NCBI GenBank assembly: GCA_000697665.1
Contig: KL197717.1
Span: 665,811 to 729,810 of the forward strand
Length of the DNA: 64,000 bases
Direction of reading: 5' to 3'
Source: Jaapia argillacea MUCL 33604
Taxonomy: Eukaryota > Basidiomycota > Agaricomycetes > Jaapiales > Jaapiaceae
A program made the position numbers and the translations under genes. This document shows, piece by piece, positions 9,703-58,670 of the stretch. Position 1 is the first letter of the stretch. Every line of letters begins with the position of its first letter. The notes below the pieces were generated by a model. The model worked only from the letters and a program-made list of their open reading frames with translations. It searched no databases and was not told the DNA's origin.

Positions 9703-9744
9703 CCTCGCGTCAAAACCCCCATGCTTGGTGGTCGACCCTCGAGC

Positions 9745-31477: not shown

Positions 31478-32160
31478 CCAAGTGTATGCTGGAATTCTGA
31501 ATGGTATCATCGCTTTATGAGTGAAAGGGTTGGCCAGGGATGATGTCGAAGTCCATATACAGAACATTGCTCGTCTATGAATTCTGTGTATGAGAGACGC
31601 GTAACAAACCTAATGTCGAAGTGGTCGGTGCTGAAGCGCTGAAGTGCTGTGCCTAGTCAGCATCGACACGGCTCCCATTTGGCTACTATGACTCTGAGAG
31701 ACTTTGAAGACAACTGCCAGGCCTCACCGGCCTCACCTTTGGTACAATTGTTTAATGCGCGGTCTGGGACTCGATTCATAGATGATAACACTAGGTCAAA
31801 CCCCCACCGGTTCCCCGATGCGTCACTCAAGAGACCGTGACTGCCATATGAGAGCCCGAGGCGTGGTGGTCCAACCCATGCATCTCCTCATCGACCATCC
31901 GGTCCAAGTCCCATTGTTCTCAGCGAGAGGAAGCGACGCAAATCGACTGGATTGGTATGGCATGCGCACGGTGACTGTCACCCCCCCTCATCGTTGAACT
32001 CGCCATCATCTCTCATGAACGAGAACACACGTAGAATCAGAATTAACAGGAATTTCATCCAGTGCTGTAACAAAACAAAAGTCTACGAGGAATCCGAGGA
32101 GTATACCATAAAAAAGTGAACGAGTGAATAACAGCGACGACAAATTCCCAACGACATCAT
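31478..32160. other. Intergenic, contains a small hairpin element
   Basis: Sequence between the convergent F-box gene and ERG6. Apart from the element at 31543-31622 nothing coding or structural is recognisable. Confidence 0.4.
31543..31622 (+). mobile_element. Miniature hairpin element, locus 1 (about 60-bp core, direct-repeat flanks)
   Basis: A core beginning CCATATACAGAACATTGCTC is bounded on each side by ATGTCGAAGT (31543-31552 and 31613-31622), a 10-bp direct repeat like a target-site duplication. The core holds inverted arms CATATACAGAA and TTCTGTGTATG (one mismatch). The same core occurs in opposite orientation at 41564-41625, also between direct repeats. It is too short to encode anything. 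Confidence 0.6.
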
Positions 32161-33388
32161 CTACTCCGTGGTAGAGACAGGTTTCCTCGAGATGACCAAG
32201 TACATCGGCGTGAACAGCTAAAGGAGAAATAAACAGTTAATACGCCATATTGAAAGCGAACAAGGGAGAAACCCACCTTGGTCTGGCCACCCTTGACAAG
32301 CGCATCCCCAGCAACCTTCAACGCCTCCCCAACCTCCCAAGTCCCCTTCGGCAACATGCCCACCCACTCCATAACCCTCATAGCATTATGACTAACCAAC
32401 TTCCCACTCCAACTCATCCTCCAAACCGTAAAATAATCCCACCAAGTCTGGGCTTTCCTAATATCACCCTCAAGTGGATAATACCAAGGCACTTCATCGG
32501 GTCTCTCCGCCAAATCTTCTTCGTGTTCGATTTGGAAACCGACGGAAACGAGGGCGTTGCGGGATGAGGAGATGGGTCGCATTTCGGGGATACCGTTGCC
32601 GAATTCGATCTCGTGGGCGAGGGATTTGTGGGAGGGGATTGAAGGGTCCCATTCATCGGTCATCACCCACTCGTACACACCAAACTACCAAAAAACCACA
32701 GTATCAGCTCGAGGTCGTAACCGAACCCAAGAAAAAAACACTCACGATTCCTCCAGGTTTAAGCACCTTCATAATCTCCCCATAAACCCCCTCAAACGAA
32801 GGAGCATGCACAGTAGCCTCAATAGCATAAACAGCATCAAACGTCCCCTCCCCAAACTGTTCCCCCAATTTCATAAAATCACCCTTGACAAACTCAACCT
32901 GTCCCTCCAACCCCGCTTCCCTAGTATACTTCCTAGCCCTTTGGATTTGGAAATCATTGTTATTGAGGCCTGTGATATGGACATCTGCGAAGCGAGCGAT
33001 TTCGCGTGCGGGGCCACCGACGCCACAGCCTACGTCTAGGACTCGCATGCCTGGTCGGAGAGACATTTGGGCTGCTAGGTAGTGTTCGTGACGGGCTAGG
33101 GAGGCGGCGAAGGCTTCGCCTTTGTAGAAACGGGAGAAATGGAAGGATTTGGCCCAGCCGTATTCGTAGAGCTCGGTGGCGCCGTCGTAGTAGCCTACAC
33201 AAACACAAGGTTAGGATGTGGGAAGGGAGAGGGAGGGATGACGGACCGTTGACTACGTCGGTGTAACTGTCGACACGGTTGTCGGTGTCTACTTTTGCTT
33301 CGTTGGCCATGTCCTTTTGCCAGAAGGCGGTGTAGTTTTCGATGCGTTTGTTGACGCGACCATCGGGCAACTCAATGGCTCCGGGCAT
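32161..33388 (-). CDS. ERG6: Sterol 24-C-methyltransferase
   Basis: S-adenosylmethionine-dependent enzyme that methylates C-24 of the sterol side chain (zymosterol to fecosterol in yeast) in ergosterol synthesis, at ER or lipid droplets. The start at 33388 gives [20 protein letters not shown]. After an intron the sterol-contact region reads [23 protein letters not shown]-binding motif I is [18 protein letters not shown], followed by [17 protein letters not shown] and the acidic [11 protein letters not shown] motif. A short intron separates VLKPGGI from [21 protein letters not shown] last intron precedes [18 protein letters not shown], with the stop at 32161. The length of about 345 residues is normal. 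All key motifs are intact. A copy of its 5' end is found at 43477-43638. Confidence 0.95.
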
Positions 33389-34776
33389 ATTTAAGCTGCA
33401 AAAGAAAATAAGAATGAGTACCAGAATTTGGAAATGAGATGGGGGAGGGAAGAAGAGAGGGGTGGTCAGAGACTTGAATGGATCCCGAAGGAAACGACCC
33501 AGTGTACACAGCGTGTACGTCGAGGATTGAAAGTTGCATCATATGGAAGATGGGACGTGACGAGGATGCCGCCCAAGGGAAAGGAAATGGACTCACGGGT
33601 TATGGGAGTAAGGAGAGTGAGGGAGGGAGGGAGGAAGGGGAAGGAACGAAGAGGATGGGACGAGGGAGATATATGGCTGCTGCAGAAGCCACGACCAAAA
33701 AATCAGCCCATGCAAAAATACGGAATAACTCACGTGCTCGTGTCATTCTGCTAGCCAATCACAGGAAAGGGACGTTGATGAGACAATTGCGAGAGCTATT
33801 GCAACTCGAAGTTGACTTGAAGCTTGAAGTTACATGTCCATGAATCCTTCCTTTGACGATGGTGCGCTACTAGAACTGGAACGATAATCCATCGATAAAT
33901 CCGATGCAAGCACTGCTGCAGCGAAACAAAAATCTATCATCTCCGACACCAGCCAAAATCGTCCAATCATGGCACGAGTATCGTTCCAATCAGCCATGGC
34001 GCCATGGGCTCCAGGTGCATAATCACCATGACCTGACCAAAATCAAGGTCCCAACTCTCCTGGCCCCGTTGCTTGCTCCTATGGCCAGCGAACAAATTTC
34101 CCCTCAGCTTGCATGAAGGTCGCCCCACGCCGTAGCACCTTGCGCCACCGAGATGTTTAGTGTTGCTTGTATCCACATGACACTCCCGCAAGGTCTCGTG
34201 ACCGTCCGCCATCAACGCGCCTCCTAAAGCGAACCGCATCTTGGCTGACCACCATTCCCTCTTGACCCACAACCACCACCACCCCTATGCAACGACTCAC
34301 CTGTTACAATCTAGCATCGTCTCGAGCATCGTTTCCTCATACTTTAGTCAAGGTGCCCATCATATCCACGCTCGCATTCCTGCACTCATCGTTTGCCCTC
34401 CGTTCCTCAGACCAGGTTTCTCCTGTAGGCGTTCGTCGGCGCTGCCATACGTGAAGAACTTACTTTAATATGGTATGTGTTTCGTGCACGGCTCTTGTCA
34501 CTTCTGTGCCATCTGACATTGGCTTGTCTCCATCCTATGCGCTTCCAGCCTTACATTCTATCTCCTTGGCCGTTTCCGCTTTACACTCGTACTCTCACTT
34601 CCACACTATCCTCGTTTCTCATACACAAGCCATGCCTAACCGTCGCTGTGTTCCTCCTAGCTCTCCACCCCAATTGTCAGCCACCAGCCTACCCGTCAAC
34701 CACCATCCCTAGCCTCAACATATCGCGCATACCCAGCACACCTTGTATGTATTCCTTTCATATCTCACTTACCTCC

Positions 34777-34916
34777 CATGTAGCTTCGTACATATTGTAT
34801 CTTACCCTCATGTAGCTTTGTACTCACTGTACCTTATTCCCATGTAGCTTCGTACTCATTGTACTGTACCGTAAGTATTCCCATCATGTAGCATCGCACA
34901 CATTGTATCTCTCTCC
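34777..34916 (+). repeat. 32-bp tandem repeat, four units
   Basis: Units start at 34777, 34809, 34841 and 34885, each beginning CATGTAGCwTyGyAC and continuing to a TTGTAy or CTGTAC core. The first three are exactly 32 bp apart. The fourth is displaced by 12 extra bases (GTACCGTAAGTA-like). The repeat is imperfect, non-coding and of minisatellite type. Confidence 0.8.
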
Positions 34917-35495
34917 TCTCCCGCCGCACTTCTCGTACGGAAGGCTTCAGAGTTATATGGGTTACCGGGGGACCGGTGCCCATTCCTGGGGGTTTTGCAT
35001 ACTTTCCTCCAGGTTCTCTCTGCCATCCTGCCTTTAATGGCCAGTACTTGGAACGGTTTTGTTAATGAGCATTTTCGTTGTGTGTTATCTGGTGTGCCTG
35101 TGTGATGACTCGGTTCTTGTAATCTGTTCTTGACGGAGGGTTAGTGAGTGCCCCACCGCCGTCTGAACATCGGCGTGGCACCAAGTAGCTCGGGGCCCCA
35201 GCGCGCTCGGAACACGATCACGAATCACGATATCCAGCGGAAATTAACCTGGGGCGAAAGTGACGATGGTGGTTGCGATTGGGATTACACAAAGCACAAC
35301 TGCTTCGGCGGCCACATAGTCCTAGTACTAGGACAATCACTAGACCTAGTCGCCACCAACGATCGAACAAAGTTGCCATCTTGCAAAGGACCCTCGACGT
35401 TGAGGTAATACTGAACCGTCGTCAACGTGTGACCGGAACACACGAACTGAGGTGGGGTTCAATTAGTGGGTTCAGGTGGATTGTGTTCGGAGAGA

Positions 35496-35522
35496 GGGTG
35501 AGGGTAAGGGCGAGGGTGAGGG
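35496..35522 (+). other. G-quadruplex motif, five GGG runs with 3-nt loops
   Basis: GGG-TGA-GGG-TAA-GGG-CGA-GGG-TGA-GGG: five G-triplets with uniform 3-nt loops. Loops this short predict a very stable parallel quadruplex on the plus strand. It lies in a non-coding spacer just left of the big tandem duplication. Confidence 0.75.
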
Positions 35523-36518
35523 AGGAAGAGATACTGAAGTCGGGGGTGAATGAAGTTGAAGATTGCACTTCATATTGGAGGTCGATGAGGTTGTGAGTCT
35601 TTGAAGTGGACGGAAAGATCTAGGTGGAGTATCAGACCAGCCGGTGATGCCAACAGAACTTGTGAAAGAAGAGCGACAGGGCCAGGGAGAGATCGACTTA
35701 TACCACCACTCGTTAAAGCATCATACGAATCCAATTGTTTGAACATCGCAACCACAGTTTCGAGATACGGAACGACTTGTACTTCCTGATATGTCTCAGC
35801 AAAACATCGTGGTTCGAGGGTGCTCACGCTTTGCATTCCCAATAAACGTTTCCATAATCAGTATTTGTTACCTCTTGGTTCGGGTGGATGACGCACCAAT
35901 GGGGCGAAAAAGGCACCGTCCGAGACTTTCATCGTCGATGTTACAGATTGGAATGAGCGAGGAGGGTGCGGGGGGTTTGAGAGATGAGAACGATTTGTAC
36001 GGGGGGTCAGTTCACAGAAGATTAAATAGGACCTGCTACCGAGAGGTCTCAATCGAACGTTTGAATGTCATGGCGCCCAAATCCTCCAAAGTTGTTTGAA
36101 ATTTCATTGTGTTTGACACTCTCCGTCGTCGATGGAATTAGGGCTGAGAGTGGCGGTAATATCCCAACCACTTGCTATTCGTAGAAGCGCTCCCGCGAAG
36201 TGTTCGAGGAAAAGAAGCTCGTAGCGCATGAACATGCTTGATGATGACAGTTTGCGTGTCTCGCCCAAGTTGAAGGGTGTATCCTTGCTAAAGCGCCCAG
36301 GAGGATTGATGGCAAGAGGAAGTGCAACGTTCATCCAGCGTTTAGTCATTGGGAAGGCTTCTCAGTGGGCCCAAGGGATTTACAAAGCGATAGGGTATAG
36401 CAAGAGGCGCAATGGTGGGGTATATACAAAGAGTGATCAACAATGGCACTGAGTAAGCGAAAAAATTCGTAAATGAGATTTATTTAGGAAAGGAGAAGGG
36501 TTTCTCACCGCGTCGTGC

Positions 36519-38360
36519 TCAATCAGGAATGAAGAATGGCACTTCAAATATTTCGGCGTTATTTTCAATCGCGAAATGCTCTCTTTCAGAGGTCAAGGTC
36601 TTCCTCTCAGACTCGGCCTTCTCAGGAGTCATCGTCTCCGCTAAAACGTAATCCTTGACCATACTTCGCAACTCCACTGGAAGGTTCATGAGGTCGAACT
36701 CCTTCGATAGATTGAGAAGTGAGGTTCCGGCCCCCAGCTCATCCGTATACCACGAACGCTGTTGTGGAGGGACTTTCGAGGTCGAAAGGATTGGGAGTGA
36801 AGGGTCGACGAGGAAGAAAGATAAGATCTTGCGAAAACCAGGTTTCGACGAATCCGCGAGTTTGAAGGGATCAAACCGATGCTGGTATACGTTCGGAAAG
36901 ACGATGCACTTGTCTTCCACGATGGGAAGGGATCCTAGTCCTTGAGTGAGAGGGCGTTCGGCAGCCAGACCGAACGTCACCTGGTAGGCCTCGGCGTCGC
37001 TCGAATCGGGGGTTTGTCCAAACAAATTCCCTTTATCCCCATACCCAACAGCTGTTCGGAATTCCAATTTGGATTGATCAATGTTGCTGTGGGCATAACA
37101 ATATGTGCCGATAGCGACGATCTGTTCGTTCTCCAATCCTTGAACAAGCCAGTCTCCACCAGAGAAGGTAGGGCTCTCTGGTGTAAGGAAAATATTCACT
37201 ATCTTCACTATAACCTGGATCGTACGACCTCCGAGTTTGAATTCGTTACGGCGTTCTGTGGTGGATGGGGAGAAGAGTGCGGGGTCGGGGATGTGAGGCC
37301 ACCTATGTCCTTGGTCCAACTTGTCGATATCTGGGGCATCCCTTTTGCCAGGTTCGGGCAGATCACAGTCAGAATCAGGTTCTCGCCCGAGCCACTGCCC
37401 TGGGTCAACTGGGATAATGGGCGGGAGCTCGGGGCCAAGGCAATCGGAAAGCACGTTCTCGAAAAGCGGCAGGAACTTCTGGAGAATACCGGTGACAGCA
37501 AGGTAGAGAGGCTTGTGAGCGACAGGGTGAATGTTATTGATGTATCCTAGAGGCCGCATTCGACCCGAGGACGATACGCTGAAGTCGGTGGGTAGCCATT
37601 GGTGCGAGTGAGAGAAATTGAAGAAAGCGGAATCCGCGAGGTCTGGACGAGCATCCTCATAGTCGTCCATTGATGGGACATATACTTGAGTAGCCTCGCC
37701 GGCGGTTGACTTGACGACGAGGGACTCGTCGATTCGGTAGCAGTAGAGGGAAGGGTGGACGACGTCAAGGGCTTGATTTGGGACATCAGCGTCTGGATGC
37801 CACGTCTGTTGTTGGATTGAGAAGTCTTCCAGAAGGGAAGCAGCATCGAGGAAGGCAGATTTCAAATCGGGCGGTATGAGCTTCACTGACTGATAGACTT
37901 TGGGAATGGCCGTCGTCTAGAAAGAAAGTTTTCAGCGGACGGTTATGCTGAAGAATCATGCCAGTCTGACCTCAATACCCGACTCCTTGTCCCTGCGCGT
38001 CGCGGCGTCCTTCAATCCATCAAATATATAATGCACCTGCGCATCATTGATCCTCTCCCTCGGCCATTTTCCCTCGCCATATCGAGAACCCACGCGTATT
38101 GCTTCGCCAATACATCTTTCGACGGTCTGCGCATCTTGTTCGATGATCTGGTTCTTCCACTCTTGCACCACATTCTCGTCGAATATCTTCTCCCACCACC
38201 GAGGCTTCTCCTGGATCCGCCCAGCGAGGATTCGCAAACGCAACTCTACAAGAGTCATCGGGAGTTTTCCATTGCTCGGTTTGAACGGAGATGGGAAGAC
38301 TACTGCCTCGCCATCAGTGCTCGAATGGCCTTCCATAGGGCTTGTCTTCAGAGGGGTCAT
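36519..38360 (-). CDS. DUF4246-family protein, intact copy 1
   Basis: Fungal protein family of unknown biochemical function. Exon 1 starts at 38360 (MTPLKTSPMEGHSSTDGEAV) and contains EKPRWWEKIFDENVVQEWKN. An intron of about 56 nt ending TTTCTAG joins ESGIE to TTAIPKVYQSVKLIPPDLKS. The single large second exon holds DVVHPSLYCYRIDESLVVKS, then RPLGYINNIHPVAHKPLYLA. It continues with YQHRFDPFKLADSSKPGFRK and ILSFFLVDPSLPILSTSKVP, the DUF4246 hallmark. The C-terminal helix is LPVELRSMVKDYVLAETMTP, ending VPFFIPD at 36519. Length about 590 residues, normal for the family. The tandem sister at 44877-46711 carries a frameshift and a stop, so this is the only intact gene of the pair. Confidence 0.85.
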
Positions 38361-39711
38361 ACGGCTCGCAGGAAAAGAATAAGCCAGTCCAAAGCCAGTG
38401 ATTAAGTGTTGTGATATGTAGTGCCCGATGAAAGACAGTAAAAAATGAAGTCAACCAACGGAACCTCTTGCAGGGAGAGGTCACGGTAAGCGAGAGTGGC
38501 TGGAAACCTTGTGCAGGCCGCCGACTCGGACTCGCGGGCGCGACTGATGTATATACAAAAACATTTCTAATTGACCAACAAGTTGGCCCACTGGCAAGCT
38601 AACGACTTCACCCAGCTGTGCTTAAGCTTCATGACTTGCCGTCAACTCGAGGGCTAGGTACACAGTGCGACAGCTGGTAACGGTTACACTATGCATATGT
38701 CCAAACTATGCCTACAAAAGTAGGAAGTCCCACTAAGTTTCTTTCTCTTCGACAGGCCCACTCCTCGAGGAGTCGAGCAGAGGCTGTCCAAAGGACCCTT
38801 TACCGACTCGGAAACCGTGACCTCTCCAGTTGTACGAATCCGATAATTCCTTGCTCTTGGGCGGTTGCACAATGCTCCTGTTGCGCACTTAGGCCGTTCT
38901 TGTCTTCCACCAGTCATGTTGTCGCCTGCCAGAGTGTCCGGTAGAACCAATCTCTGCTCGTCGCTTGCTTCAACATTGTCAGTCAAAATCTTCTTTTGCT
39001 CGTTTCCCTCCCTTTCGCAGCCGCAACCACTCCGGAGGCCTGCTGATCCATAGAGTTATGTTGCTCCGAATTAGTGCCTTCCCTACAAGGCGGAATTTTT
39101 ATTCAACATCCCAGGTGATTTGGGTCACTTGTCTCCAACAGCTCGACGTCAATGGGCATCTCGGCCGTGAACTCTATCTTCACAAGCTTCTGGTCAGCAT
39201 TCCGCCTCCACTGCTCATAATACATCCGCTATCAAGGAACTGGTCCGTCGCAATGGGGTAACGGCCTCGCAGAATTCACCTTCTGTTCCTTTGAATGACA
39301 AGGTCGGTATCTTCCCAGTCATCATTGCCCAAGGTGTTTGGGAACACGGACATGGTTTCTCTAGCTCTCCAATCCAAACAGTTTGACTTGGCACCCTCAC
39401 GAGGCTCCGCCGTAACGGTTCTCCGGCGGCGTTTTGACGCGTCGGTAGCAATTCATCAATTCATTTCGCCGTCCGTCTTTCCACTAAGGCCAAAGTGGTA
39501 CCGCATTCACTAGCACCGGACACTTTGGCTAGCTGCAGCGGTTCACTTATGTACACCTCTACGTCTTTTTGCTCGACCGTTTTACAAGAGCTGGTATCAT
39601 CGTTGTGTTTGCCGCCCCATCAATCTGCTCTGAGATTCGCTGACGATTTCAAGGATAAGCTGTCGTCTAAGGATTCGTCTCCTGCTACTAATTCACCTTG
39701 TCGAGTCCACC
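38361..39711. other. Spacer of tandem copy 1, possible gene remnants
   Basis: It corresponds to 46712-48588 in copy 2. Plus-strand fragments such as SAIKELVRRNGVTASQNSPS and NDKVGIFPVIIAQGVWEHG (about 39220-39360) have counterparts in copy 2. A gene may once have been here, but frames are interrupted and no family is recognised. Confidence 0.35.
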
Positions 39712-41277
39712 ATGTCATTCACCGTCTCTCAAATTCAGGAGCACCCTGGCTCCTTTCTTGGTGCCTACTTGGCTGATCTCGTTCTCCAAGCTTTCCAAAC
39801 GGGTTTACTGGTTGATCTCTCATTAAAATTTTGGCGCCGGAGCCATAATGAGAGCGTTGGAACCAGAGTTCTTGTCGCCTATGTGATGTTTGTTGCATTG
39901 TAAGTTCATTTGCACCACATAGCCCTTATCTGTGTCGCTAATGGATGCATTTCGAAGGTTTCAGATGGGCATTAGTTTCTATTCCGCCTGGCGTGTCAAC
40001 GTAGTGCATTTTGGGGACTGGGTAGGATTTATTTATTTCCTTGATAATATAGGTTGACGATGAGTATCGTCCACACCTAAATTTTCAGATGGTTCTTCTT
40101 ACACTTGTTTGGCCCGACGAACTTCAAGGTCTCATGGTAGGTGACCGCGCACAATTTTTTTGTCGCCTGGCATCTGATTTCGCAGACTGTTGCACTGTCA
40201 TCCCCAGTCCAAGCGTTTTTGATATGGCGATGTTGGATTGTGAGTACATCACGCGGTCATTGTGGAACATGACTTAATCACTATCGTACCAAAGTTTACA
40301 CGCAAAAGTTGGGTGGTCCTTGTACGCCGATCCACTTTCTCGCCACGGATTTACAGGATCTGAAGACTTCCAGATCCCACTGGTATCTCTGCTTCTGGCA
40401 TCTGTCGTCTCTGCTGTTTATGTGTCTGTTGGCATGTTCACGATACGGTTCTCGACTCATGGACCTCTGATGACGAGTATCCCGGTTCGTCACGCCCGTT
40501 TGACAGGACTGCCATTTTCTGAGATCTCATAGGTTGATACACCTTGTCTGTCATTTAACTTTCTTCTCTTCCCTTGCCACTGATTTCCCTGTGACTTTAG
40601 TTGTGTTAAGCTTAATTTTGACTGCCGGTATGTGACTCTTTGTATCAAAATTCCCGGCGCACCATCGAGAATGACCTCACATCAGCTCTGGATTTCGCCA
40701 TCACCTCCACCCGCAAGTGGTCTATCATTGATACTATATCCTGGCTGACATTCAGACAGTTTTGTTCTTTCTTTCTCGCTCACGATCTGACGTGTTCAGC
40801 CGGAAGTTTGATCGGGTACACACTTCATCACCTTTCTTGGAGAACTCCCTTACCGTATTTTCAGGTATTCCAGCGGCTCATCATGCTATCGTGGGAAGCA
40901 GCAGTGGCTCCTTGTGGATGTGCAATTATCACAGCAGCCCTATACTTGGTCTACGTACGTCTTGTTTTGGCGATAAGTTTCCTAGGCCCACATCCAGTTC
41001 TTCAGGGCAATGGCAACTTTTGGTATCTCTTCTTCCGAGGAATCCTAGGCAAACTATATGCCATGTCCCTATTGATAACCTTGTGAGTTACTCTGCAAAG
41101 GATTCGGACAATTTGTCGAGTTGAAATCTCAGGAATTCTCGAGCGAAGTTACGCAGAAAGCTGAGGCCTAACTTCGTGGATCCAACCTTGAACCTCCCTC
41201 CTATTGAAGTTCATGTCACTGTCAGTCTTCTTGTTAGTTTCCTCTTCCCCCGCTACATGACCCACTTATCTGTGTAA
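39712..41277 (+). CDS. DUF6534-type multi-pass membrane protein, copy 1
   Basis: Predicted 7-TM protein of a family expanded in mushroom-forming fungi; function unknown. Exon 1 (ATG 39712) reads HPGSFLGAYLADLVLQAFQT and RVLVAYVMFVAL. An intron starting GTAAGT joins it to FQMGISFYSAWRVNVVHFGD. Short exons then give MVLLTLVWPDELQGLM and TVALSSPVQAFLIWRCW-like sequence, followed by TRKSWVVL and IPLVSLLLASVVSAVYVSVG. Later exons include ENDLTSALDFAITSTRKWS, PCGCAIITAALYLVYV and GNFWYLFFRGILGKLYAMSL plus LITL, the conserved last helix. A 2-bp insertion relative to copy 2 near 41248 shifts the frame, so this copy ends early (FLFPRYMTHLSV) and lacks the 30-40-residue hydrophilic tail. The membrane core appears intact. 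Confidence 0.7.
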
Positions 41278-41554
41278 TGAAGGGGTCGGGTCACGAAGGC
41301 GATGATACCACAGGGACCGACTCGGGGTCCTCCGCCGCTTCCGCGCCCCCACTAGAAAGCATTGTTCGTCCAGGGATAACTGAAAAATCGCGGTGACTCC
41401 TATACCCGTGTAGGAAATAACTAGCCTGATAGTTGGTCTCATCCCCTGTTTAGTGGTTACCGCCTTCCAATCCAAGGCCGGCTAAGAGTTGTCGCTACTA
41501 CTGTACTTTAGAGGTGAATCTGAATCTGTATGACAAGCACGGCTACGCACTTCC

Positions 41555-41634
41555 CTCGAAGTATACTTGTTACGGCATCTCTCATACACAGAATTCATGG
41601 ACGAGCAATGTTCTGTATATGGACGCTCGAAGTA
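41555..41634 (-). mobile_element. Miniature hairpin element, locus 2, with empty site in tandem copy 2
   Basis: CTCGAAGTA occurs at 41555-41563 and 41626-41634 around a 62-bp core that is the reverse complement of the core at 31553-31612 (shared ACGAGCAATGTTCTGTATAT). In tandem copy 2 the same place (about 50430-50450) has a single, slightly diverged flank (TTGGAGTA) and runs straight into AATCTGAG, as expected for an unoccupied site. Confidence 0.65.
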
Positions 41635-41853
41635 GGAAATCTGAGACAAGAACATCCCAGCATGATGATGATGCCACATAGTATCCTCGGCCAACATAGT
41701 TTCATGGATGCGGAGTGAGAACGAAAACATATTTCTGGAGCAACGCCGAAACAGACGGCCGGCGACTCTGCGACTCTTCGCAAGTCTTACCGGCAACAGT
41801 CGCTGCTAGTTGGCGGACCGGGGTCCCCAACCGTCCTGATCTTAAAACACCGC

Positions 41854-43476
41854 TTATTCATCAGAGTATTCATCAGAGTCTGAATAGTCGTCTTCATCGT
41901 CATCGAGCCTGGAAGGTCCAATCATTCGTGACCATCAGCCAGATGAGATTGAAGTTGATTCAAGATGACACTCACCATCCCCGCCGATTGTTGCGTCTCG
42001 GTCTCTCATATCGGTCTAAGTTCAAGTCTTCCTTGTGAACGTCATAACCCATGCACGAGACTCCCAACCATCAAAACAACCGTCCCAATAATCATCGACA
42101 GCTCCTTGAATAAAGGCAATTTCTTCTTCGGTGGCACGATCGTGTCGACAATCAAGTAGTTCCAACATCCTAGTCCCGCGAGCATGGGCCTTCTTCTGCA
42201 GATAGGGGATAATGGTCTTGAAGGTGACCTTGGAGTTACGTCCGACGCAGAGCTGTTCCAGGCCGGGGCACAACTCGTGGAGGCGGCCCATTAATAACAC
42301 CTCCCCCAACTCCGTGTGAGATATGCTCAGTGTTTTGAGATGATCACCGAACCTGGCAAGTTGTTCGATGAAAAGATGTTCATTCTGAGCATCCAGGTCG
42401 TCATCCCAATGAAGGTAAGGGTGGTTCAGTTGCCGACGATTAGAGCATCAATTGTAGGGAACTCAAGTCGCCGGAGGATCTCGAAACTGTAAACCCCGAG
42501 GATGAGCTCTCGCAACCCCGAGAGGACGATCGGAGATGATTTAGGGTCGGCAGCTTCTCGGAATCCATGTCTGGGTGTCGTCGACCACCCGTCCATGATC
42601 ATATCCACGCGGGGATGAGCTTGTTCAACGACTCCAGGCTCGCAAGGTTCGTAGGTCAAGGGAGGACCTAGATGTTTCTGTTCATACTTCTCTCGCACCT
42701 TAACAGCCCGGAGGAGGCCGTGAAGTATTTTCCCGACATCTCCACCAGGGTCCAGTGGCGAAGTTTAACCGATGCCCATATGGCACATCTTGAGACTGTA
42801 AAGTTGAGAAATGACTGGGATGGTCATATCTGTGGAGAAGCGATAATGGACCACCCCGCGTCCTTGGGTATAGGAATAGGGTTATACTAAACAAAATGGC
42901 AGGTATCCTCAGCGATGAGTTTAACCACACAAGGTTGAATGTACGGACGGATGAGAAATCGTATGAGACATGTCATATCAAAGCCATGCCAGGGGCCTTG
43001 GGAAAAATATCTGAACTCCTCCAAGTCGCGAACGAGTGCTTGTCGATAGCACGGAGTATCGTCTGGAAGGTAGACTTCCTGTCATTGTGGGCACAGACGC
43101 GTTTTGGACGAGATTCCGGTTTGTCCCAGTCGAAAGTCATGTCTAAGTCGATGTGGGCTAGGCGGGAAACGCCTGCTCGCTGCACAAAGGCTGCAGCCCT
43201 TAGGCACGGACTTTTGTCGAATTTGCTGACTTTGAGACGTCGCCAAAATTTGAGGGTAGATATAGTCGTGTTGCGGCTCGATTGGCACACTTGAGATGCG
43301 AAGAAGAGATCGGACACTCCAGGTTCAAACAAATTGCAAATGAGTACCAAAATATCAGATGGTAAGCGGTCGAAGCCGTAGTGGAGGCGTTTCTTGAACA
43401 GGCTCGTCAACGACTCGACGCATTTAAACCGATAAATCTCACCAGAGCCAAACGTTCCTTCTGTTGCTCCACGATC
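41854..43476 (-). pseudogene. F-box protein gene, tandem copy 1 (broken)
   Basis: Counterpart of the intact gene at 50638-52530. Recognisable pieces are KKRLHYGFDRLPSDILVLIC, then REKYEQKHLGPPLTYEPCEP, GLRELILGVYSFEILRRLEF and HELCPGLEQLCVGRNSKVTF. Disabling changes are a TGA at 42426-42428 after DALIVGN, where copy 2 reads on through NPLYLHWDD, and a deletion of about 40 bp near 42870-42895. The original first exon is also missing: the 5' end stops inside the coiled-coil exon (EIVEQQKERLAL) and is joined to an ERG6 fragment. The acidic C-terminal tail is still readable down to a TAA at 41854. Confidence 0.8.
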
Positions 43477-43638
43477 TCCAGTTTTCGGTGCGCTCGTCGA
43501 CACGACGATCGGGCAACCCAATGGATCCGGGCATATTGAAACTGAGGAGGAAAATAATAATTAGTACCAGAATTGGAAATTGAGATGGAGGAAGGAAGAG
43601 AGAGGGGCGGTCAGAGACTTGAATGGATCCCGAAGGAC
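43477..43638 (-). pseudogene. Duplicated ERG6 5' end (promoter-proximal DNA plus about 19 codons)
   Basis: The segment matches 33332-33486. The ERG6 start context is kept: ATG at 43534, MPGSIGLPDRRVDERTENW, against [19 protein letters not shown] in the real gene, and about 100 bp upstream match as well (GACTTGAATGGATCCCGAAG in both). It abuts the truncated F-box copy 1. The ERG6 frame is not in phase with the F-box frame across the junction, so no simple fusion protein results. Confidence 0.8.
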
Positions 43639-44231
43639 ATTACACTGTGGTTAAGCAAATTCGCCAAATCGGCGTAAAAACGGGAGATGGCGTACGAACG
43701 AGTCCCAGGACGATTGGTCCGACTAAGGTGAGGCACAAGCCATGTGAGAGTGATCGAAAAGCACTGGTCTCATTCCAAGTCCTTAGGTGGGAGCGGTCTT
43801 GGAACGAGACTACCAAAGTCCAGGAATCCCCCAAGAATCAGCCACGCCATAATTCAGGTCCCAAAATTGGGGGTGAACGAGCACGCCTCCTGTTTCACCA
43901 CCTTTCACGCCCAATCAAATACACAGGTCGTAAGCCGAGAAGACATGGGAAACGAATGCGGTTGACGTACACAACAAGAATCAGTCGTAGCAGCTTGAGG
44001 GGAACAGCTGAGAACAGGTGGGGTGGGGCATTGGGATGAAGTGTCGAGGTGGTGGGTTGGGTTCAGGTGACGAAGTCAAGTCCTGGCATGTGGGCGGAGG
44101 AGGTTGTGGTGGTGATGTGTGGGGAGGGGTGGTGGGATTGACGATGAGGTAGAAGGTGTGGGTGAAGGAGTGTGTGTGTTGTGGTTCGTCCGGTTGGCTT
44201 GAGTAATTTCGGATTGGTTTTGAAGAGTTAT
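43639..44231. other. Unique spacer between the two tandem copies
   Basis: About 590 bp without match to either unit. GT-rich on the plus strand around 44090-44190. No gene recognised. Confidence 0.4.
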
Positions 44232-44876
44232 AATGGGGATGAGCAATGGAACAAACAAGGCACCGTCTGAGACTTCCATCGTCGATGTCACAGATTACGA
44301 TGAGCGAGGGTACGGGGGTTTGAGATGAGAAGGATTTGTGCGGGGAGTGAGAGCGAGTTCACAGAAGATTAAATAGGACCTGCTACCGAGAAGCCTCCAT
44401 CGAACGTTTGGATGTCAGGGTGCCCAACTCCTCTGAATTGGTTGGAAATTTCATCGCGCTTCACACTCTCCGTCATCGAAGGAATTAAAGAGAGCGGCGG
44501 TGACATCACACCTGCGTACGTTTGATGGTAAGACAGTCAGAAGAAGGGAAGAAGGGCTCCCGCGAGAAAAGCTTGAGGGAAAGAAGCTCGTAGTAGCATG
44601 AGTACTATTCTCGAAGATGATAATGTGCGTGTCCCGTCCAGGTTGAAGGGTGCATCATCGCCAAAGTGCCCAGGAGGAGTGATGGCACGAGGAATGGCAA
44701 CGTTCATCCAGCGCACAGCTATTGGAGAGGCTTCTCGACGGACCCAAGGGTATTACAGAGCGATAGGATATGGCAAGAGGCACCAATGGTGAGGTATATA
44801 CAAAGAGAGGTCAACAATGGCACTGAAGCCGAGCGGAAGGATTCGTAAATGAGAAGGGTTTCTCACCACGTCGTGC

Positions 44877-46711
44877 TCAGTCAGGAATGAAGAATGGCAC
44901 TTCAAATATCTCGGCGTTATTCTCAAGCGCGAAATGCTCTCTTTCAAAGGTCAAGGTATTCCTCATATCATTGGCCTTCTCCAGAGTCATCGTCTCCGCT
45001 AAAACGAAATCCTTGGCCATACTTCGCAACTCCACTGGAAGGTTCATAAGTTCAAACTCCTTTGATAGATGGAGAAGCGAGGTTTCCGCCCCCAGCTCAT
45101 CCGTGTACCACGAACGCTGTTGTGGAGGGACTTTCGAGGTCGAAAGGATTGGGATTGAGGGGTCGACGAGGAAGAAAGATAAGATCTTGCGAAAGCCAAG
45201 TTTCGATGAATCGGCGAGTTTGAATGGACTGAATCGATGCTGGTATACATTCGGGGAGACGATGCACTTGTCTTCCACGATAGGAAGGGATCCCAATCCT
45301 TGAGTGAGTCGGCGTTCGGCAGCCAGACCGAAAGTCACCTGGTACGCCTCGGCGTGGCTGGAATTGGGGGTTTGTCCAAATAAATTCCCTTTATCCCCAT
45401 GCCCTACAGCTGTTCGAAAATCCACTTTGGATCGACCAATGTTGCTGTGGGCGTAACAATATGTGCCAATAGCGACGATCTGTTCGTTCTCCAATCCTTG
45501 AACAAGCCAGTCTCCACCAGGGAAGGCAGGGTTCTCGGGCGTAAGGAAGATGTTCACCAGCTTCACTATCACCTGGATGGTACGACCTCCGAGTTTGAAT
45601 TCGTTACGGCGTTCTGTGGTGGATGGAGAGAAGGGTGCGGGGTCGGGGATGTGAGGCCACCTATGACCTTGGTCCAACTTGTCGAAATCTGGGGCATCCG
45701 TTTCGCCGGGTTCGCGTAGATCACGGTCAGAATCAGGTTCTCGCCAGAGCTACTGCCCTCGGTCAACTGGGATAATGAGCGGGAGCTCGGGGCCAAGGCA
45801 ATCGGAAAGCACATTCTCGAAAAGCGGCAGGAACTTCTGGAGAATACCGGTGACAGCAAGGTAGAGAGGCTTGTGAGCGACAGGGTGAATGTTATTGATG
45901 TATCCTAGAGGCCGTATTCGACCTGAGGATGATACGCTGAAGTCGGTGGGTGGCCATTGATACTGGTGAGAGAAATTGAAGAAGGCGGAATCTGCGAGGT
46001 CTGGACGCGCATCCTCATAGTCATCCATCGATGGGACATATACTTGAGCAGCCCCATCCACGGTTGGCTTGAGAACGAGGGACTCATCGATTCGATAGCA
46101 GTAGAGGGAAGGGTGGACGACGCCAAGGACTTGATTTGGGACATCAGCATCTGGATGCCACGCTTGTTGTTGAATTGAGATGTCTTCCAAGCAGCATCGA
46201 GGAAGGCAGATTTCAAGTCTGGCGGTATGAGCTCCACCGACTGATAGACTTTGGGGAGGGCCGTGGTCTAGAAAGAAAGTTTTCGGCGGACGGTTATGCT
46301 CAAGAATCATGCCAGACTGACCTCAATGCCCGACTCCTTGTCCCTGCGCGTCGCAGCGTCCTTCAATCTATCAAATATATAATGCACCTGCGCATCACTG
46401 ATCATCTCCCTCGGCCATTTTCCCTCACCATATCGACAATCCACGCGTATTGCTCCGCCAAAACATCTATCGACGATCTGCGCGTCTTGTTCGATGATCT
46501 GGTTCTTCCACTCTTGCACCACATTCTCGTCGAAAATCTTCTCCCACCACCGAGGCTTCTCCTGGATCCCACCACCGAGGGTTCGCAAACGCAACTCTAC
46601 AAGAGTCATTGGGAGTTTTCCATTGCTCGGTTTGAACGGAGATGGGAAGACTACTGCCTCGCCATCAGTGCTCGAATGGCCTTCGATAGGGCTTGTCTTC
46701 AGAGGGGTCAT
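44877..46711 (-). pseudogene. DUF4246-family gene, tandem copy 2 (broken)
   Basis: Exon 1 (46711, MTPLKTSPIEGHSSTDGEAV) and its intron are preserved. In exon 2 a 7-bp deletion near 46195, in the codons for the copy-1 residues ASLLED, shifts the frame. Farther on, the tryptophan codon of copy 1 (GQW, TGG) is TAG at 45750-45752. After that an uninterrupted frame of 266 codons (45677-44877) retains the QHRFSPFKLADSSKLGFRKI core and ends VPFFIPD, so the sequence is still young. A product could be made only by an internal start. Confidence 0.8.
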
Positions 46712-47035
46712 ACGGCTCGCAGGAAAAGAATAAGCCAGTCCAAAGCCAGTGATTAAGTGTTGTGATATATATTATGTAGTGCCCGATGAAAGACAGTAAA
46801 AAATGAAGTCAACCAACGGAACTTCTTGAAGTGAGAGGTAACGGAGATGGGAAGACTACTGCCTCGCCATTAGTGTTCGAATTGCCTTCTAGAGGGCTTG
46901 CGGCCTGGATTGTCTTCGGAGGGGTCATGAATAAACCAGTCCAAAACCAGTCGGATTAAGTGCTGTGAGAGTGCCAGGTGAAAGCCACGGTAGTAAGTAA
47001 AAAATTAAGTTAACCAACAGAAGCGAGAACCTTGC
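46636..47035. repeat. Local tandem duplication, about 205 bp, private to copy 2
   Basis: ACGGAGATGGGAAGACTACT at 46636 recurs at 46841, and similarity continues to ACCAACrGAA at about 46815 and 47020. The unit covers the first codons of the DUF4246 pseudogene and its promoter. Tandem copy 1 has only one such unit. Confidence 0.75.
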
Positions 47036-48588
47036 GCTGCAGGCCGCCGACTGACCGATTGATGACTGGCGCGACGACTGACCTTCTGTATGTAGTACTG
47101 TAACAACTTTTCCAATAGCCGGTTGACCCACCACTGGCAAGCCAGCGCCTTCACCTTCGTGACTTGCCGCTCGCAGACACAAATCCATACTTTCTCGGGG
47201 ATTGCATCGATACGACTAAGTATACGGCGCAATCCCTGGTTGCCCCGTGCGACAGCTGGTTACACTAGTACTATGCCTACAAAATCAGCGAGTCCCACAA
47301 TTTCTGTCTCTTTGACCATCCGCACTTCTCGAGCAGAGGCTGTCCAGAGAACCCTTTGCCGACTCTGAAACCTCTCCAGTTGTACCAAATTCCTTGCCCT
47401 TAGACGGCTGTGCAACGCTCCTGTTCCGCATCCTTAGGTCGTTCTTGTCCTCCACCAGTCATGTGGTCACCTGCGACAGTCTTGGGTAGAACTAGTCTCC
47501 ACTCGTCGCTCGCTTCAAAGATGAATTCACAATATATTGTCAGTCAAAATCTTCTTTTGCTCCTTTTCCTCGCTTTCCCACCCGCACAGTGCACCCCGTC
47601 GCTCGGTTGTCCACAGAATTGTATTGCTGTGCCAAAATAGTGCCTTCCCTACGGGGAGAACCATTTACTCAACATCTCAAGTCATTTTGGTCGCTGGTCC
47701 CCAACTCGACGCCAATGGGCATCTCGGCCACAAACTCTATCTGCCAAGCTCTTCTCAAACTTCTGGTCAGCACTCCGCCTTTTCCCCCTTGAATATCGAA
47801 TCCATCTTCATTATCAACGTTCGGAGATTCACAACAGAGCAGGGGTGTTGACACTTTCGGACCGTATTTAGCGTCAACCCACGTCATCCGAGATTCCGAG
47901 CATCATACGGTGAGACATACTGGACTTTTCAGGCAGACTCATATGACCTATAATGCGAAGCATGCTGCACCGTACGTATCATTCGAAACGAGAGCAGCTC
48001 TGGAGTAGTGCTGTCTGGTTATCTGTGAGCACCTTCCTCGTGTTGGACGTCCAACCAAAATGACTCTATTTACCCTCCATTAACTCTTCCCGTCCACTGC
48101 ACATAATACATCCGCTATCAAGGAACTGGTCTGCAACAATGAGATCACGGCTTCGCAGAATTCACATTCCATTGCTTTGAATGGTGAGGTTGGCGTCTTC
48201 CTGGTCATCATTGTGCAAGGTGTTTGGGAAAACTGGCATGCTTTCTCGTTTGCTACTGGCAGCACCAAATGGTTTGACTTGGCGCCCCGCCCTGAGGTTC
48301 TCTGGTGGCGTTTGACGTTTCGGTAGCAATTCATCGGTTCATTCCGCCGTCCGTCCTTTCACTGAGGCCAAAGTGGCACCGGACTCACTAGTACCAGTCA
48401 CTGGGATAGCTGCAATGGTTCACTTATGTACACCTCTACGTCTTTTAACTCGACCTCGTTTTAAAAGAGCTAGTACTATCCTTCTGTTTGCCGCCACGTC
48501 AATCTGCTCTAAGATTCACTGACGACTTCAAGGATAACATCATCCAAGGACTTGTCTCCTGCTGCTGATCCACCTCATCGAGTCGGCA
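47036..48588. other. Spacer of tandem copy 2, possible secreted-protein remnant
   Basis: At 47521 a plus-strand ATG opens MNSQYIVSQNLLLLLFLAFP followed by PAQCTPSLGCPQNC, which looks like a signal peptide with cysteines, but stops after 39 codons. Later fragments (STSQVILVAGPQLDANGHLG; SAIKELVCNNEITASQNSHS; NGEVGVFLVIIVQGVWENWH) have matches in copy 1. A decayed or unresolved multi-exon gene is possible; I cannot assemble it. Confidence 0.35.
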
Positions 48589-50276
48589 ATGTCATCCATC
48601 CTCTCTCAAATCCAGGAGCACCCTGGCTCCTTTCTTGGTGCCTACTTGGCCGATCTTGTTCTTCAAGCTTTCCAAACGGGTTTACTGGTTGATCTCTCAT
48701 TAAAATTTTGGCGCCGGAGCCATAACGAGAGCGTTGGAACCAGAGTTCTTGTCGCCTATGTGATGTTTGTTGCATTGTGAGTTCATTTGCGTCGCATAGC
48801 CCTTATCCGCGTCGCTAATGGATACATTTTCGAAGATTTCAGATGGGCATTAGTTTCTACTCCACCTGGCGGGTCAGCGTTGTGCATTTTGGGGACTGGG
48901 TAGGATTTATTTGTTCATTGATGATATGGGTTGACGACGAGTATCGTCCACACCTAAAATTTCAGATGGTTCTTATTACACTTGTTTGGCCAGACAAACT
49001 TCAAGGTCTCATGGTAGGTGGCCGCTCACAATTTTTGTTGTCGCTTGGCATCTGATTTAGCAGACTGTTGCACTGTCATCCCCAGTCCAAGCGTTTTTGA
49101 TATGGCGATGTTGGATTGTGAGTACATCACGCGGTCGTCGTGGAACATGACTTACTCACCATCATGCCAAAGCTTACACGCAAAAGTTGGGTGGTCCTTG
49201 TACGCCGATCCACTTTCTCGCCACGGGTTTACCGGATCTAATCAACACTTCCAGATCCCACTGGTATCTATGCTTCTGGCATCTGTCATCTCTGCTCTCT
49301 ATGTGTCTGTTGGCATATTCACGATATGGTTCCCGACTCATGGACCTCCGATGACGAGTATCCCGGTGCGTCATGCTCGTTTGACAGGACCGTCATTTTC
49401 TGAGATCTCATAGGTCAATACACCTTGTCTGTCGTTTAACTTCCTTCCTTTTCCTTACCGCTGATTTCTCTGTGACGTCAGTTGTGCTAAGCTTAATTTT
49501 GACTGCTGGTATGTGATTCTTTGTGTCAAAATTTCCTGCGCACCGTTGAGAATGACCTCTCATCAGCGCTGGATTTCGCCATCACCACCACCCGCAAGTG
49601 ATCCATGATTGATTCCATATTCTGACTGACAATCAGCCAGTTTTGTTCTTTCTTTCTCGATCCCGATCTGATGTGTACAGCCGGAGGTTTGATCGGGTAC
49701 CCACTTCACCATTTTTCTCGGAGAACTCCCTTACCGTATTTTCAGGTGTTCCAGCGACTCATCATGCTATCGTGGGAAGCAGCAGTGGCCCCTTGTGGAT
49801 GTGCAATTATCGCAGCAGTCTTCTACGTGGTCTACGTATGTGGCTATATCTTACCGATAAATTTCCTAGGCCAACATCCACTTCTTTAGGGCAATGACAA
49901 CTTTTGGTATCTCTTTTTTCGAGCAATCCTAGGCAAACTTTATGCAATGTCCCTATTGATCACCTTGTGAGTTACTCTGCAAAGGATTCGTACAATTTGT
50001 TGAGTTGAAATCTTCAGAAATTCTCGAGCGAAGTTACGCAGAAAGCTGAGGTCTAGTGTTGTGGACCCGACCCTGAACCTCCATCCCATTGAAGTTCACG
50101 TCACTGTCAGTCTTCTCGTTGGTTTCCTCGTCCTGCTACATGATCCACTTATCTGTATAATGAAGGGGTCGGGTCGTGAGGCCGATGATACCACGGGGGC
50201 CGACTCGGGATCCTCCGCCACATCCACACCCCCACTAGAAATCGTTGTTCATCCAGAGGTGACTGAAAAACGATAG
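48589..50276 (+). CDS. DUF6534-type multi-pass membrane protein, copy 2
   Basis: The second tandem copy, with the same exon layout as 39712-41277. Exon 1 starts at 48589 (MSSILSQIQEHPGSFLGAYL), and the first intron starts GTGAGT and ends TTCGAAG. It continues FQMGISFYSTWRVSVVHFGD, then MVLITLVWPDKLQGLM, TVALSSPVQAFLIWRCW, TRKSWVVL and IPLVSMLLASVISALYVSVG. The last helix region ends in LYAMSLLITL, and the tail begins NSRAKLRRKLRSSVVDPTLN. This copy keeps a hydrophilic C-terminal tail (SGSSATSTPPLEIVVHPEVT) ending at 50276. Some middle exons are hard to place: the equivalent of copy 1 LTSALDFAITST has a stop-like TGA just after it, so minor damage cannot be excluded. Confidence 0.68.
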
Positions 50277-50637
50277 TGACGCCTATGCCCGTGTAGCAAA
50301 ATACTGGCCCGACAGCTGGTCCCGTGCCCTGTTTGTTGCGGTTATGCAATAGTTGTCACATGTCACTACTGCTGTACTTTGGATGGAGGTGGATCTGATT
50401 CCGTACGACAAGCACAGCTACGCACTTCCCTTGGAGTAAAAATCTGAGACAGCATGATGATGATGCCCACGGCATCCTGCCCAACCTTCATGTGTACGGA
50501 GTGAGAACGAAGAGCATATTTTTGCAGTATTAACGGAACGGACAGCAGGCGAAACCGCGACTCCGCCCAAGTCGTACCGGCAAAAGTCGCTGCTGGTTGG
50601 CGGTGGACTCCCTAAACGTCATTTTCGTAGAACAAGC

Positions 50638-52530
50638 CTATTCGTCAGAGTATTCATCTGAGTCTGAATAGTCGTCCTCATCGTCCTCATCGTCATCGAT
50701 CCTAAAAGGCCCAATCGTTCCTGATCATGAGCCAGATGAGATTGAAGTCGATTCTAGAGGATGAGACTCACCACCCCCGCCGATTGATGCGTCTCGGCTT
50801 CTCATATCGATCTAAGCTCAAGTCTTCCCTGTGAGCATCATAAACCCATGCACGAGACCCCCAACCATCCCAGTAATTGTCGACAACTCCTCGAATAAAG
50901 GCAGTTTCTTCTTCGGTGGCACGTTGTTCTCGACAATCAAGTAGTTTTAGGGTCCTAGTCCCACTTGGATGGGCTGCCTTCTTCTGCAAATACGAGATAA
51001 TGGTCTTGAAGGTCACCTTGGCGTTACGTCCGACGCAGAGCCGTTCCAGGCTGGGGCACAACTCGTGGAGGTGGCCAAGTAATAGCGCCTCCCCCAACCC
51101 CGTATAAGTTATGCTCAGCGTTTTGAGATGATCGCCGAATCTGGCAAGTTGGTCGACGAAGAGCTGTTCGTTCGGAGTAGCCAGGTTGTCATCCCAATGA
51201 AGGTAAAGGGGGTTGGCAACGATTAGAGCCTCGATTGCAGGGAGCTCAAGTCGCCGGAGTATCTCGAAGCTGTCAACCCCAAGGATGAGCTCTCGTAAAC
51301 CTGGGAGGACGATCGGAGGTGATTTAGGGTCGGCAGCTTCTCGGAATCCATGTCTAGGTGCCGTCGTCCACCCATCCATGATCATATCCACACGGGCATG
51401 GGCTTTGTCAACTACTCCGGGCTCGCAAGGTTCGTAGGTCAGAGGAGGACCTAGATGTTTCTGTTCGTACTTCTGTCGCACCTGAACAGCCCGAACGAGG
51501 CCGTGAAGTATTTTCCCGACATCTCCATCAGGGTCCAGTGGCGAAGATCGACCGATGCCGATATGGCACATCTTGAGACTGTCAAGTCGAGAAATGACTG
51601 GGATGGTCGTGTCTGTGGAGAAGCAATAATGGACGACCGCCCGCCCTCGGATAAGGAATTCGGCAAGACGGGGATTCCAACACGGCAGGATGGGTATAGC
51701 ATTATACCAACCGAAATCACAGGTATCCTCAGTGATGAGGTGAACCACGCGAGGTTGAATGTACGGACGGATGAGAAATCGTATAAGATATGTCATATCG
51801 AAGCCATGCCAGGGGCCTTGGGAGAAATATCTGAACTCCTCCAGGTTGTGAACGACGCCCTTTTTGGTGTACTTGTCGATAGCGTGGAGGATCGTCTGGA
51901 AGGTAGACTTCCTGTCGTTTCGGGCACAGACGCGTTTCGGACGAGCTTCCGGTTTGTCCCAGTCGAAAGTCATGTCCAAGTCGATGTGGGTTAAACCAGA
52001 AACTCCTGCCCGCTGTACAAAGGCTGCAGCTTTCAGGCCCGGATTTTTGTCGAATTTGCTGACTTTGAGACGTCGCCAAAATTTGGGGGTCGATATGATC
52101 GTGTTGCGCCACGATTGGCACACTCGAGATACAAAGAAGAGATCGGAACCTCCAGGTTCAAACAGACCACAAACGAGTACCAAAATGTCAGAGGGTAAGC
52201 GGTCGAAGCCGCAGCGGAGGCGTTTCTGGAACAGACTCGTCAAAGACTCGACGCATTTAAAGCAAGAAGTCTCACTAGAGCCAAAGATTCCTTCCGTTGC
52301 TCCGCAATCTCCTCAGCAAGAGCCTTTGCTACCTGCTAGGTGTGAGTTGTTGGCATTATGAAAGGAAAACGGCGCCCAACATTCGAATCCTGCCCGCGGA
52401 CCATGTCCAACGCAGTCTCAAGAAAGCCGATGGCTACGTCTTGACTACCGACGCGACGAAGCAAGCGTGAAACTTCAAGCAATTTCTCGGCTTGGATTAG
52501 CTGGCGATTCCGGTTAAAACTGGCAGTCAT
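50638..52530 (-). CDS. F-box protein with N-terminal helical exon and acidic tail (intact tandem copy 2)
   Basis: Putative SCF substrate adaptor of about 550 residues. Exon 1 starts at 52530 (MTASFNRNRQLIQAEKLLEV) and ends DMVRGQDSN. Exon 2 is a short helical or coiled-coil piece (VAKALAEEIAEQRKESLAL). An intron then leads to KRLRCGFDRLPSDILVLVCG with FFVSRVCQSWRNTIIST, a standard F-box. The long exon continues with leucine-rich segments (LPGLRELILGVDSFEILRRL; HELCPSLERLCVGRNAKVTF). After RINRRGG an intron (GTGAGT...GATCAG, about 50718-50773) joins an acidic tail, TIGPFRIDDDEDDEDDYSDS followed by DEYSDE, ending at 50638. Only this copy of the tandem pair is intact. Confidence 0.78.
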
Positions 52531-52877
52531 CCACCTCAGGAATAAAAACTAACTTGATTAGATTCCCCTTGCTCCAATGTAGCATATTCAGACGTCAATC
52601 TCTTCAATGAGAGAACTAGTTGTTCGATCTGGAGGACTGCACTAGTCAAATGACTGGTCAGCCCGACCATGGTGCACTAGTTGGGGGGCGAGTTTGGAGT
52701 AAGGTAGCTAGGCAAATTACAAGAAAATTTGCAGTGCATGGAATGCGAGGCTGGAGGCATGTCGGTCACGTGGGTGCCGCGCGCCTATCCCTGTCGTCCT
52801 CGGCTGGGCCATTCCTAGTTGTACACGACCATCCCTTCCGCAAGCTGGAGCTTCACCTTTCTCTCTACTAATCAGTC
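52531..52877. other. Intergenic between divergent genes
   Basis: About 350 bp upstream of both the F-box gene and the unknown gene at 52878. No feature recognised beyond expected promoter function. Confidence 0.35.
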
Positions 52878-57732: not shown

Positions 57733-58670
57733 TTACGTTCTGTGGTAACGTTAACGTGCACCCCACCACCGGCTCTTTATGTAGACGAGATCTTCTGCCT
57801 CCTACCCTTTGCAGCAACTTGACCCTCGACTCCGCCGTACTTCCCGTCGGGCCTTAGGGCGTGGCCATGCCCTCTCCAGGTTGTCGGCTAATCCCCGTTC
57901 TCGTGGTCCGCGTCATCTACCTCGTCGATCTCACCGAACAGCTCTCTTCGAGTCATCGATGGTACATGTGAGTTTCAAAGTCCTTGCATTCGACAAGGAG
58001 TAAACATCCTCACTGGTCCCTCTTTTCTGGTCTCCTCAACCCCACTCCTCTACCCTAAACTCTGGATAGAGGTTGATTGATCCCCCGGACCTCATCCCTG
58101 GTCTTCCCCCCCTGATTCAACTACTACCACGCATTTTCAAGTGCTCTGTCTCTGTCCCGGCCGATTGCATTGTTCTGCATCTGTCTCGGTGCCAACAATG
58201 TGTATCAGCGACGATTCCTTTCGGAGAGCAAAGCATCATTCTTTGTCAATGGTTATCAATGTCCCTCAACACTGCTCCTCTGTCAGGCCCACTGGATAAT
58301 GTCCTACCTTGTCCATGTATACCCGTTGTCAATCCGGTTGGTGCTTACGAGTGTCCCCTGGCCATGTCTGTTGTACTGTTGTCGTCATATAGATGAGACA
58401 ATATCATGAGTTTATCCATCATTCATTTGGGTGTATACACTTTTTGCCAAGCTGGCTTCCCATCGGAGCCATCAATTACTCACATTGTGATCTGACCAGG
58501 TTACTTAAACTCAGCTGGTCAAAGGCTGAGCAGCTGCGAGCAACGGGTGTGTTACACAGCTGATCTCATCTGCTTGCACAATATGATTAGGTTGGCTGAT
58601 CACGCTCCAACCAGGTTGCCAAATCCCACCTGCTCACACCCTCAGCAGCGGGCGTCTTCACGCAGTGATA
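57733..58670. other. Unique spacer between the TUP1 tandem copies
   Basis: About 940 bp not shared with the repeat units. Short frames such as RRTSRRALGRGHALSRLSAN (57809-58003) and MSYLVHVYPLSIRLVLTSVP (58170-58409) have no recognisable family. No gene supported. Confidence 0.4.

Follow-up and report, generated by a model that had tools for sequence, protein, structure and literature searches.

A tandem duplication in Jaapia argillacea whose two copies carry different disabled genes

When two adjacent copies of a gene block carry different disabled genes, have the losses locked both copies in place, or has a redundant segment simply decayed? The question is raised by a 64,000-nucleotide stretch of Jaapia argillacea (hereafter the window, C9:665811-729810; the genome, the one examined, totals 43.7 Mb over 95 contigs). 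In it, three genes encoding DUF4246 (minus strand), DUF6534 (plus) and F-box (minus) proteins occur twice in direct orientation. An earlier note on this DNA described the block, held that neither unit could be removed without losing a function, and read the locus as divergent resolution caught early; it proposed aligning the two blocks and computing divergence for each gene and spacer, and we have done both. We favor, at a probability of roughly 70%, a single, old tandem segmental duplication in which the seam cut short one gene at the unit’s edge, combined with decay of one redundant second gene. On this account a redundant segment decayed in the ordinary way; the case is not one of selected or population-level divergent resolution.

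The duplicated unit and its seam

Self-comparison of the window paired 35897-43479 with 44244-52312 as a direct repeat, the match falling into four main pieces with identities of 73-88%. Alignment of the two blocks gave 976 mismatches in 7381 aligned bases (86.8% identity, far above chance), confirming that the DUF4246/DUF6534/F-box block is present twice in the same orientation. The extent first given for it, 35893..52320, describes the repeat itself, but the unit reaches further left, to 33334 in exon 1 of an ERG6-type sterol methyltransferase gene. The 5’ end of this native gene (33334..33492, minus strand, ATG at 33388) is repeated as a fragment at 43480..43637 (minus strand, 85.5% identity, E 3e-45). 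Followed base by base, positions up to 43479 match the block’s right end at an offset of +8833, and those from 43480 onward match ERG6 at an offset of -10146. At the seam, 43479..43480, F-box exon 3 abuts ERG6 exon 1, both on the minus strand, with zero bases inserted and zero bases shared between the two homologies.

Copy 1 of the unit spans 33334..43479 (10,146 bp), its left edge set by the ERG6 exon-1 homology and its right edge by the F-box homology; copy 2 spans 43480..52312 (8,833 bp, with insertions and deletions, or indels). ERG6 exon 1 contains the left edge and, in the inferred model, exon 3 of the F-box gene contains the right. The locus therefore has adjacent direct copies, unique outer flanks and a novel seam, the features that define a tandem segmental duplication.

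The ERG6-type gene has both a methyltransferase core and a Sterol_MT_C domain (PF08498, 66.6 bits), the two features by which membership was judged. Compared by sequence with the PDB, its protein matched other methyltransferases best, with a 24-sterol C-methyltransferase at E 3.7e-6. A 168-amino-acid query found no second close ERG6 copy in the genome, and two further matches were only 35% identical. The fragment at the seam has its own ATG at 43534; read from there, spliced or unspliced, the frame is out of register with the F-box remnant that follows and meets a stop.

We infer that this seam is the original breakpoint. A break in the F-box gene (exon 3 of the model) would have been joined to a break in ERG6 exon 1, with no visible microhomology, as a 10.1-kb unit was copied head-to-tail, leaving one complete copy each of ERG6 and the F-box gene at the outer edges. 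The F-box copy at the seam would have lost its first exons and been joined to the ERG6 start in the wrong reading frame; unable to yield an F-box protein by ordinary initiation, it would then have decayed. DUF4246 would have been copied whole, and hence redundantly, before its second copy was disabled, with DUF6534 staying open in both.

The three gene pairs

The F-box gene of copy 2 (50768..52670, minus strand) is open, with four inferred exons (52554-52670, 52402-52500, 52276-52332 and 50768-52225) encoding 576 amino acids. The unit’s right edge, 52312, falls within exon 3. Copy 1 lacks exons 1 and 2 and also 20 bp at the start of exon 3 (57 bp long), since in this model these fall outside the unit. 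The first exon is thus absent from copy 1, as had been claimed, and the loss is in fact larger. What remains is a 5’-truncated pseudogene (41972..43479, minus strand, left limit taken from the alignment) with three stops, a TAG, a TAA and the previously reported TGA at 42426-42428, which sits at a 5-bp length difference. Its length differences from copy 2 measure 1, 12, 3, 5, 37 and 13 bp, and those of 1, 5, 37 and 13 bp shift the frame. The deletion put at roughly 40 bp is real and measures 37 bp; the 13-bp and 1-bp deletions and the other two stops had not been listed. The intron-3 acceptor AG is retained in copy 1, and there the F-box frame contains no ATG from the upstream stop as far as the intron-3 donor. 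Copy 2 scores 26.3 bits against PF12937, above the cut-off of 24.3, and copy 1 scores 21.1, below it. A genome search with 488 residues of copy 2 returned six matches, namely itself and five pieces of copy 1, and no paralog elsewhere at E 0.001. The F-box gene is intact in copy 2 only.

For DUF4246 the intact member is in copy 1 (36519..38360, minus strand, exons 37971-38360 and 36519-37916). Its 596 codons, stop included, are open, and it scores 299.6 bits against PF14033 (curated cut-off 26.7) and 39.9 bits against PF21666. The pseudogene in copy 2 (44877..46711, minus strand, 5’ limit from the alignment) carries both reported lesions, a 7-bp deletion that we place at 46188/46189 (described as near 46195) and a TAG at 45750-45752. 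Each copy of the unit thus has a different disabled gene, as originally described, F-box copy 1 having three stops and four length differences that shift the frame, and DUF4246 copy 2 one of each. The DUF4246 start region recurs at 38284-38463, 46635-46821 and 46840-47022, copy 2 having an additional, more diverged partial repeat just upstream.

Between them lies DUF6534. An 11-exon model of 282 codons was inferred for copy 1 (39712..41220, plus strand, stop codon not placed), and the identical exon model fits copy 2 (48589..50105, plus strand, limits from the alignment). The modelled exons contain no indels or stops in either copy, and GT or GC and AG ends are retained at 10 of 10 introns. 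Spliced, the models score 58 bits (copy 1) and 60 bits (copy 2) against PF20152, above the cut-off of 28.2. The unspliced genomic matches are weaker, at 28 bits (28.9 with neighbours, including one TAG) and 26.5 bits; that TAG falls at the acceptor of the model’s intron 9. On the inferred model, then, DUF6534 appears open in both copies. Its inferred introns include one of 185 bp in copy 1 (40485-40669) and a GC-AG intron at 40713-40759 (GCAAGT...CAG) that is conserved in its copy 2 counterpart.

Does the loss of a DUF4246 copy threaten a unique function? A PF14033 search of the genome gave 19 matches, two of which are the window pair. We aligned ten paralogs with an open main exon, including L015, whose longer match crossed upstream stops, and left out L017 (one stop), a broken gene at C8:972849-973969 and a distant gene on C43. 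All ten have the motif WHVEG, as do L017 and L020, and the C43 gene has WHVAG. Both window copies read WLVQG and so fail the motif, the conserved histidine being replaced by leucine in the open copy 1; WHVEG is here a feature shared by the ten paralogs and not a curated criterion of PF14033. We take this motif to resemble the metal-binding motif of 2-oxoglutarate oxygenases. Both window copies deviate at 43 of the 195 columns that are invariant in the ten paralogs, and at 37 of those 43 they deviate identically (one of them a C-terminal gap); most of the departure would therefore be older than the duplication, or have spread by exchange between the copies. The surviving DUF4246 protein is probably either a pseudoenzyme or altered in function.

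A profile of seven DUF4246 sequences gave no significant PDB match (best E 0.75), an AlphaFold2 model of copy 1 built with no alignment supplied had a mean pLDDT (predicted local distance difference test) of 31.7, and we found no mention of ‘DUF4246’ in the literature searched. In a relative-rate comparison at sites where L008 and L012 agree, 7 changes are derived in copy 1 and 10 in copy 2, with 26 unpolarised; where the ten paralogs do not vary, the counts are 2 and 7, with 6 unpolarised. As ten other paralogs have an open main exon, losing DUF4246 need not remove a unique function. Family members cluster at C8:926-1003 kb and C9:754-759 kb, some of them fragmented or with stops, and DUF4246 in this genome is a birth-and-death family.

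Age of the duplication and rival histories

Divergence was computed for spacers and genes alike. Five spacer stretches (2166 aligned bases) gave a Kimura two-parameter distance of 0.22 with a transition/transversion rate ratio of ~4, and synonymous divergence (dS) in the genes ranged from 0.17 to 0.28. Neutral divergence of this size means that the duplication is not early, and the description ‘caught early’ has to be abandoned. Ratios of nonsynonymous to synonymous divergence (dN/dS, pairwise Nei-Gojobori with 500 bootstraps) were 0.054/0.197 = 0.27 (0.20-0.40) for the DUF4246 pair and 0.047/0.172 = 0.27 (0.16-0.43) for the DUF6534 pair. By this measure the DUF4246 pair has been constrained since the duplication.

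One stretch of the block is a candidate for gene conversion. Positions 38260..38464 are near-identical to copy 2, with one mismatch and one 7-bp length difference, and hold the block’s longest mismatch-free run. This run of 130 bp was matched in 0 of 300 shuffles; the run skips gaps, and the shuffle disregards rate variation along the block. The tract suggests that the copies exchanged sequence here.

Several observations weigh against a simple history of one duplication with an F-box copy dead at birth. The last exon of the F-box pair gave dN/dS of 0.094/0.277 = 0.34 (0.25-0.48), and the pair’s indel density, 4.4 per kb, is under half that of the spacers (11-23 per kb). The fraction of time spent unconstrained was estimated by rough rejection sampling from simulations, 12,000 per gene with the best 250 retained. 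For F-box copy 1 the median was 0.50 (5-95% range 0.15-0.92), and 6% of the retained runs exceeded 0.9; for DUF4246 copy 2 it was 0.33 (0.03-0.75). Death of F-box copy 1 exactly at birth fits these figures poorly unless copy 2 was strongly constrained. Between the left spacers, 33493-35896 and 43638-44243, there is no alignment beyond matches of 10-35 bases at E of at least 0.1, so one or both were rearranged. The gene models, moreover, were inferred from the sequence of a single genome. The structure favors an F-box copy 1 dead from birth, in some tension with the rate figures; the rates do not resolve which died first, F-box copy 1 or DUF4246 copy 2.

Two of these observations also favor the likeliest rival. 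An originally larger duplication could have included the whole F-box gene, with a later deletion at the boundary between the copies removing the body of ERG6 and the 5’ end of the F-box gene. Such a history would account for an F-box copy 1 seemingly constrained for part of its existence, and for a spacer left of copy 2 that cannot be aligned with the one left of copy 1. It requires a second event, however, and the genome yielded no other long match to the 2.4-kb left spacer and no further close ERG6 copy. The seam also has no extra bases, although a clean deletion would look identical. We regard this history as unlikely. A separate reading, in which the seam placed F-box copy 1 behind the ERG6 start region and the chimera was expressed and under selection for a time before decaying, leaving a failed promoter capture that can still be read in the sequence, seems to us more doubtful still.

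Far less credible is the reading with which the question began, that reciprocal loss has locked both units in an early divergent resolution. Different genes are indeed broken in the two copies. The gene order, however, is DUF4246 intact, DUF6534, F-box broken, followed by DUF4246 broken, DUF6534, F-box intact, and because the intact DUF4246 and F-box genes are the outer genes, the claim that neither unit can be removed fails. A deleting crossover anywhere in 37850-42045 of copy 1, from the DUF4246 lesions to the leftmost F-box frame lesion, would by this order leave one block with both intact genes. Of the 7381 aligned bases, 4046 (55%) fall in this interval, as do the starts of 21 of the 40 stretches of 25 bp or more in which the copies are identical. 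Crossovers outside the interval lose one gene, and recombinants without it, which the earlier note had suggested, could arise from them. A single haplotype was observed, and two random losses land in different copies half of the time. The F-box loss, or at least its 5’ truncation, would at least partly follow from where the seam fell. On the spacer divergence and the outer position of the intact genes, we rejected an early, locked-in divergent resolution.

An assembly artefact joining two haplotypes end to end can be set aside on sequence grounds alone as the least probable of these, given 13% divergence, unique outer flanks, different genes broken per copy, a transposed element with a target duplication in copy 1 only, and the absence of a second full-length match when the genome was searched with 47770-48100 and with the left and boundary spacers.

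Neighbouring repeats and known systems

The transposed element is 62 bp long (41564..41625), is absent from copy 2, and is bordered on both sides by the 9-bp duplication CTCGAAGTA (41555-41563 and 41626-41634). With one copy as query, a genome search gave 36 matches, the query included; the loci comprise 41564-41625 and ~31551-31607 in the window, L049-L058 and L062-L081. Flanks were inspected for 30 of the 36, the six weakest being left out. A flanking-duplication score of at least 7 was reached by 17 of these 30 loci versus 5 of 293 mismatched-flank controls, and a score of at least 6 by 19 of 30 versus 11 of 293; six of the 30 scored no higher than the most frequent control value. The modal geometry is 62 bp with 9-bp duplications, which range from 7 to 10 bp.

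By eye the element has an internal stem, a constant left end and a right end that is shortened in L069, L071, L076 and L079; no terminal inverted repeats were seen by eye. No Rfam family came near its gathering score for six loci (best E 0.36, 21.9 bits versus 62). Some introner families are described in PMC9860276 as having target duplications of 3-9 bp. Since it has no GT...AG ends, the element does not look like an obvious introner; it is possibly a very small non-autonomous mobile element.

Other repeats occur in the window. A further partial tandem duplication pairs 55559-57729 with 58668-61025 in a like layout, its main pieces 88.7% identical; it involves a TUP1-like WD40 gene on the minus strand, and the Tup_N part that the right copy has within 60946-61656 is apparently missing from the left one. 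An inverted repeat of ~2 kb joins 9671-11651 and 26605-28632 at 83% identity. Within the left spacer, 34884-35088 has 78-83% matches at four sites on contigs C5 and C7 and is possibly a gene or transposon fragment.

How does the locus compare with known cases of divergent resolution? In PMC5896889, the term describes lineages that keep the functional copy at different locations; for Mimulus pTAC14 these are separate genomic locations, and some hybrids are left without any functional copy. The rice pair DGS1/DGS2 (PMC5555463) is a further reported case of divergent resolution, or reciprocal gene loss. The likeness to our locus is that redundant copies exist and one is disabled by degenerative mutation. 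The pTAC14 copies differ in being at separate locations and in differing between lineages, whereas here the copies are adjacent on contig C9 in one haplotype and different genes have been lost. Reciprocal loss within one haplotype is not divergent resolution, and this locus does not demonstrate it.

DUF4246 resembles a birth-and-death family in its many paralogs, several of them clustered and some stopped or fragmented; the window pair differs in lacking the histidine that the other homologs examined retain. Apart from two points the locus is ordinary. Apparent reciprocal gene loss can be partly preset by the duplication breakpoint, and whether a unit can still be deleted with no gene lost depends on the order of the lesions. 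In surveys of reciprocal loss in tandem blocks, finding the seam should come before the counting. Our literature search on partial duplications found nothing. Tandem segmental duplications with a 5’-truncated gene at the breakpoint are a common class. The locus shares with them its head-to-tail copies, a novel seam joining two gene interiors and a truncated remnant at that seam; it differs in nothing essential, and is a fresh instance of the class.

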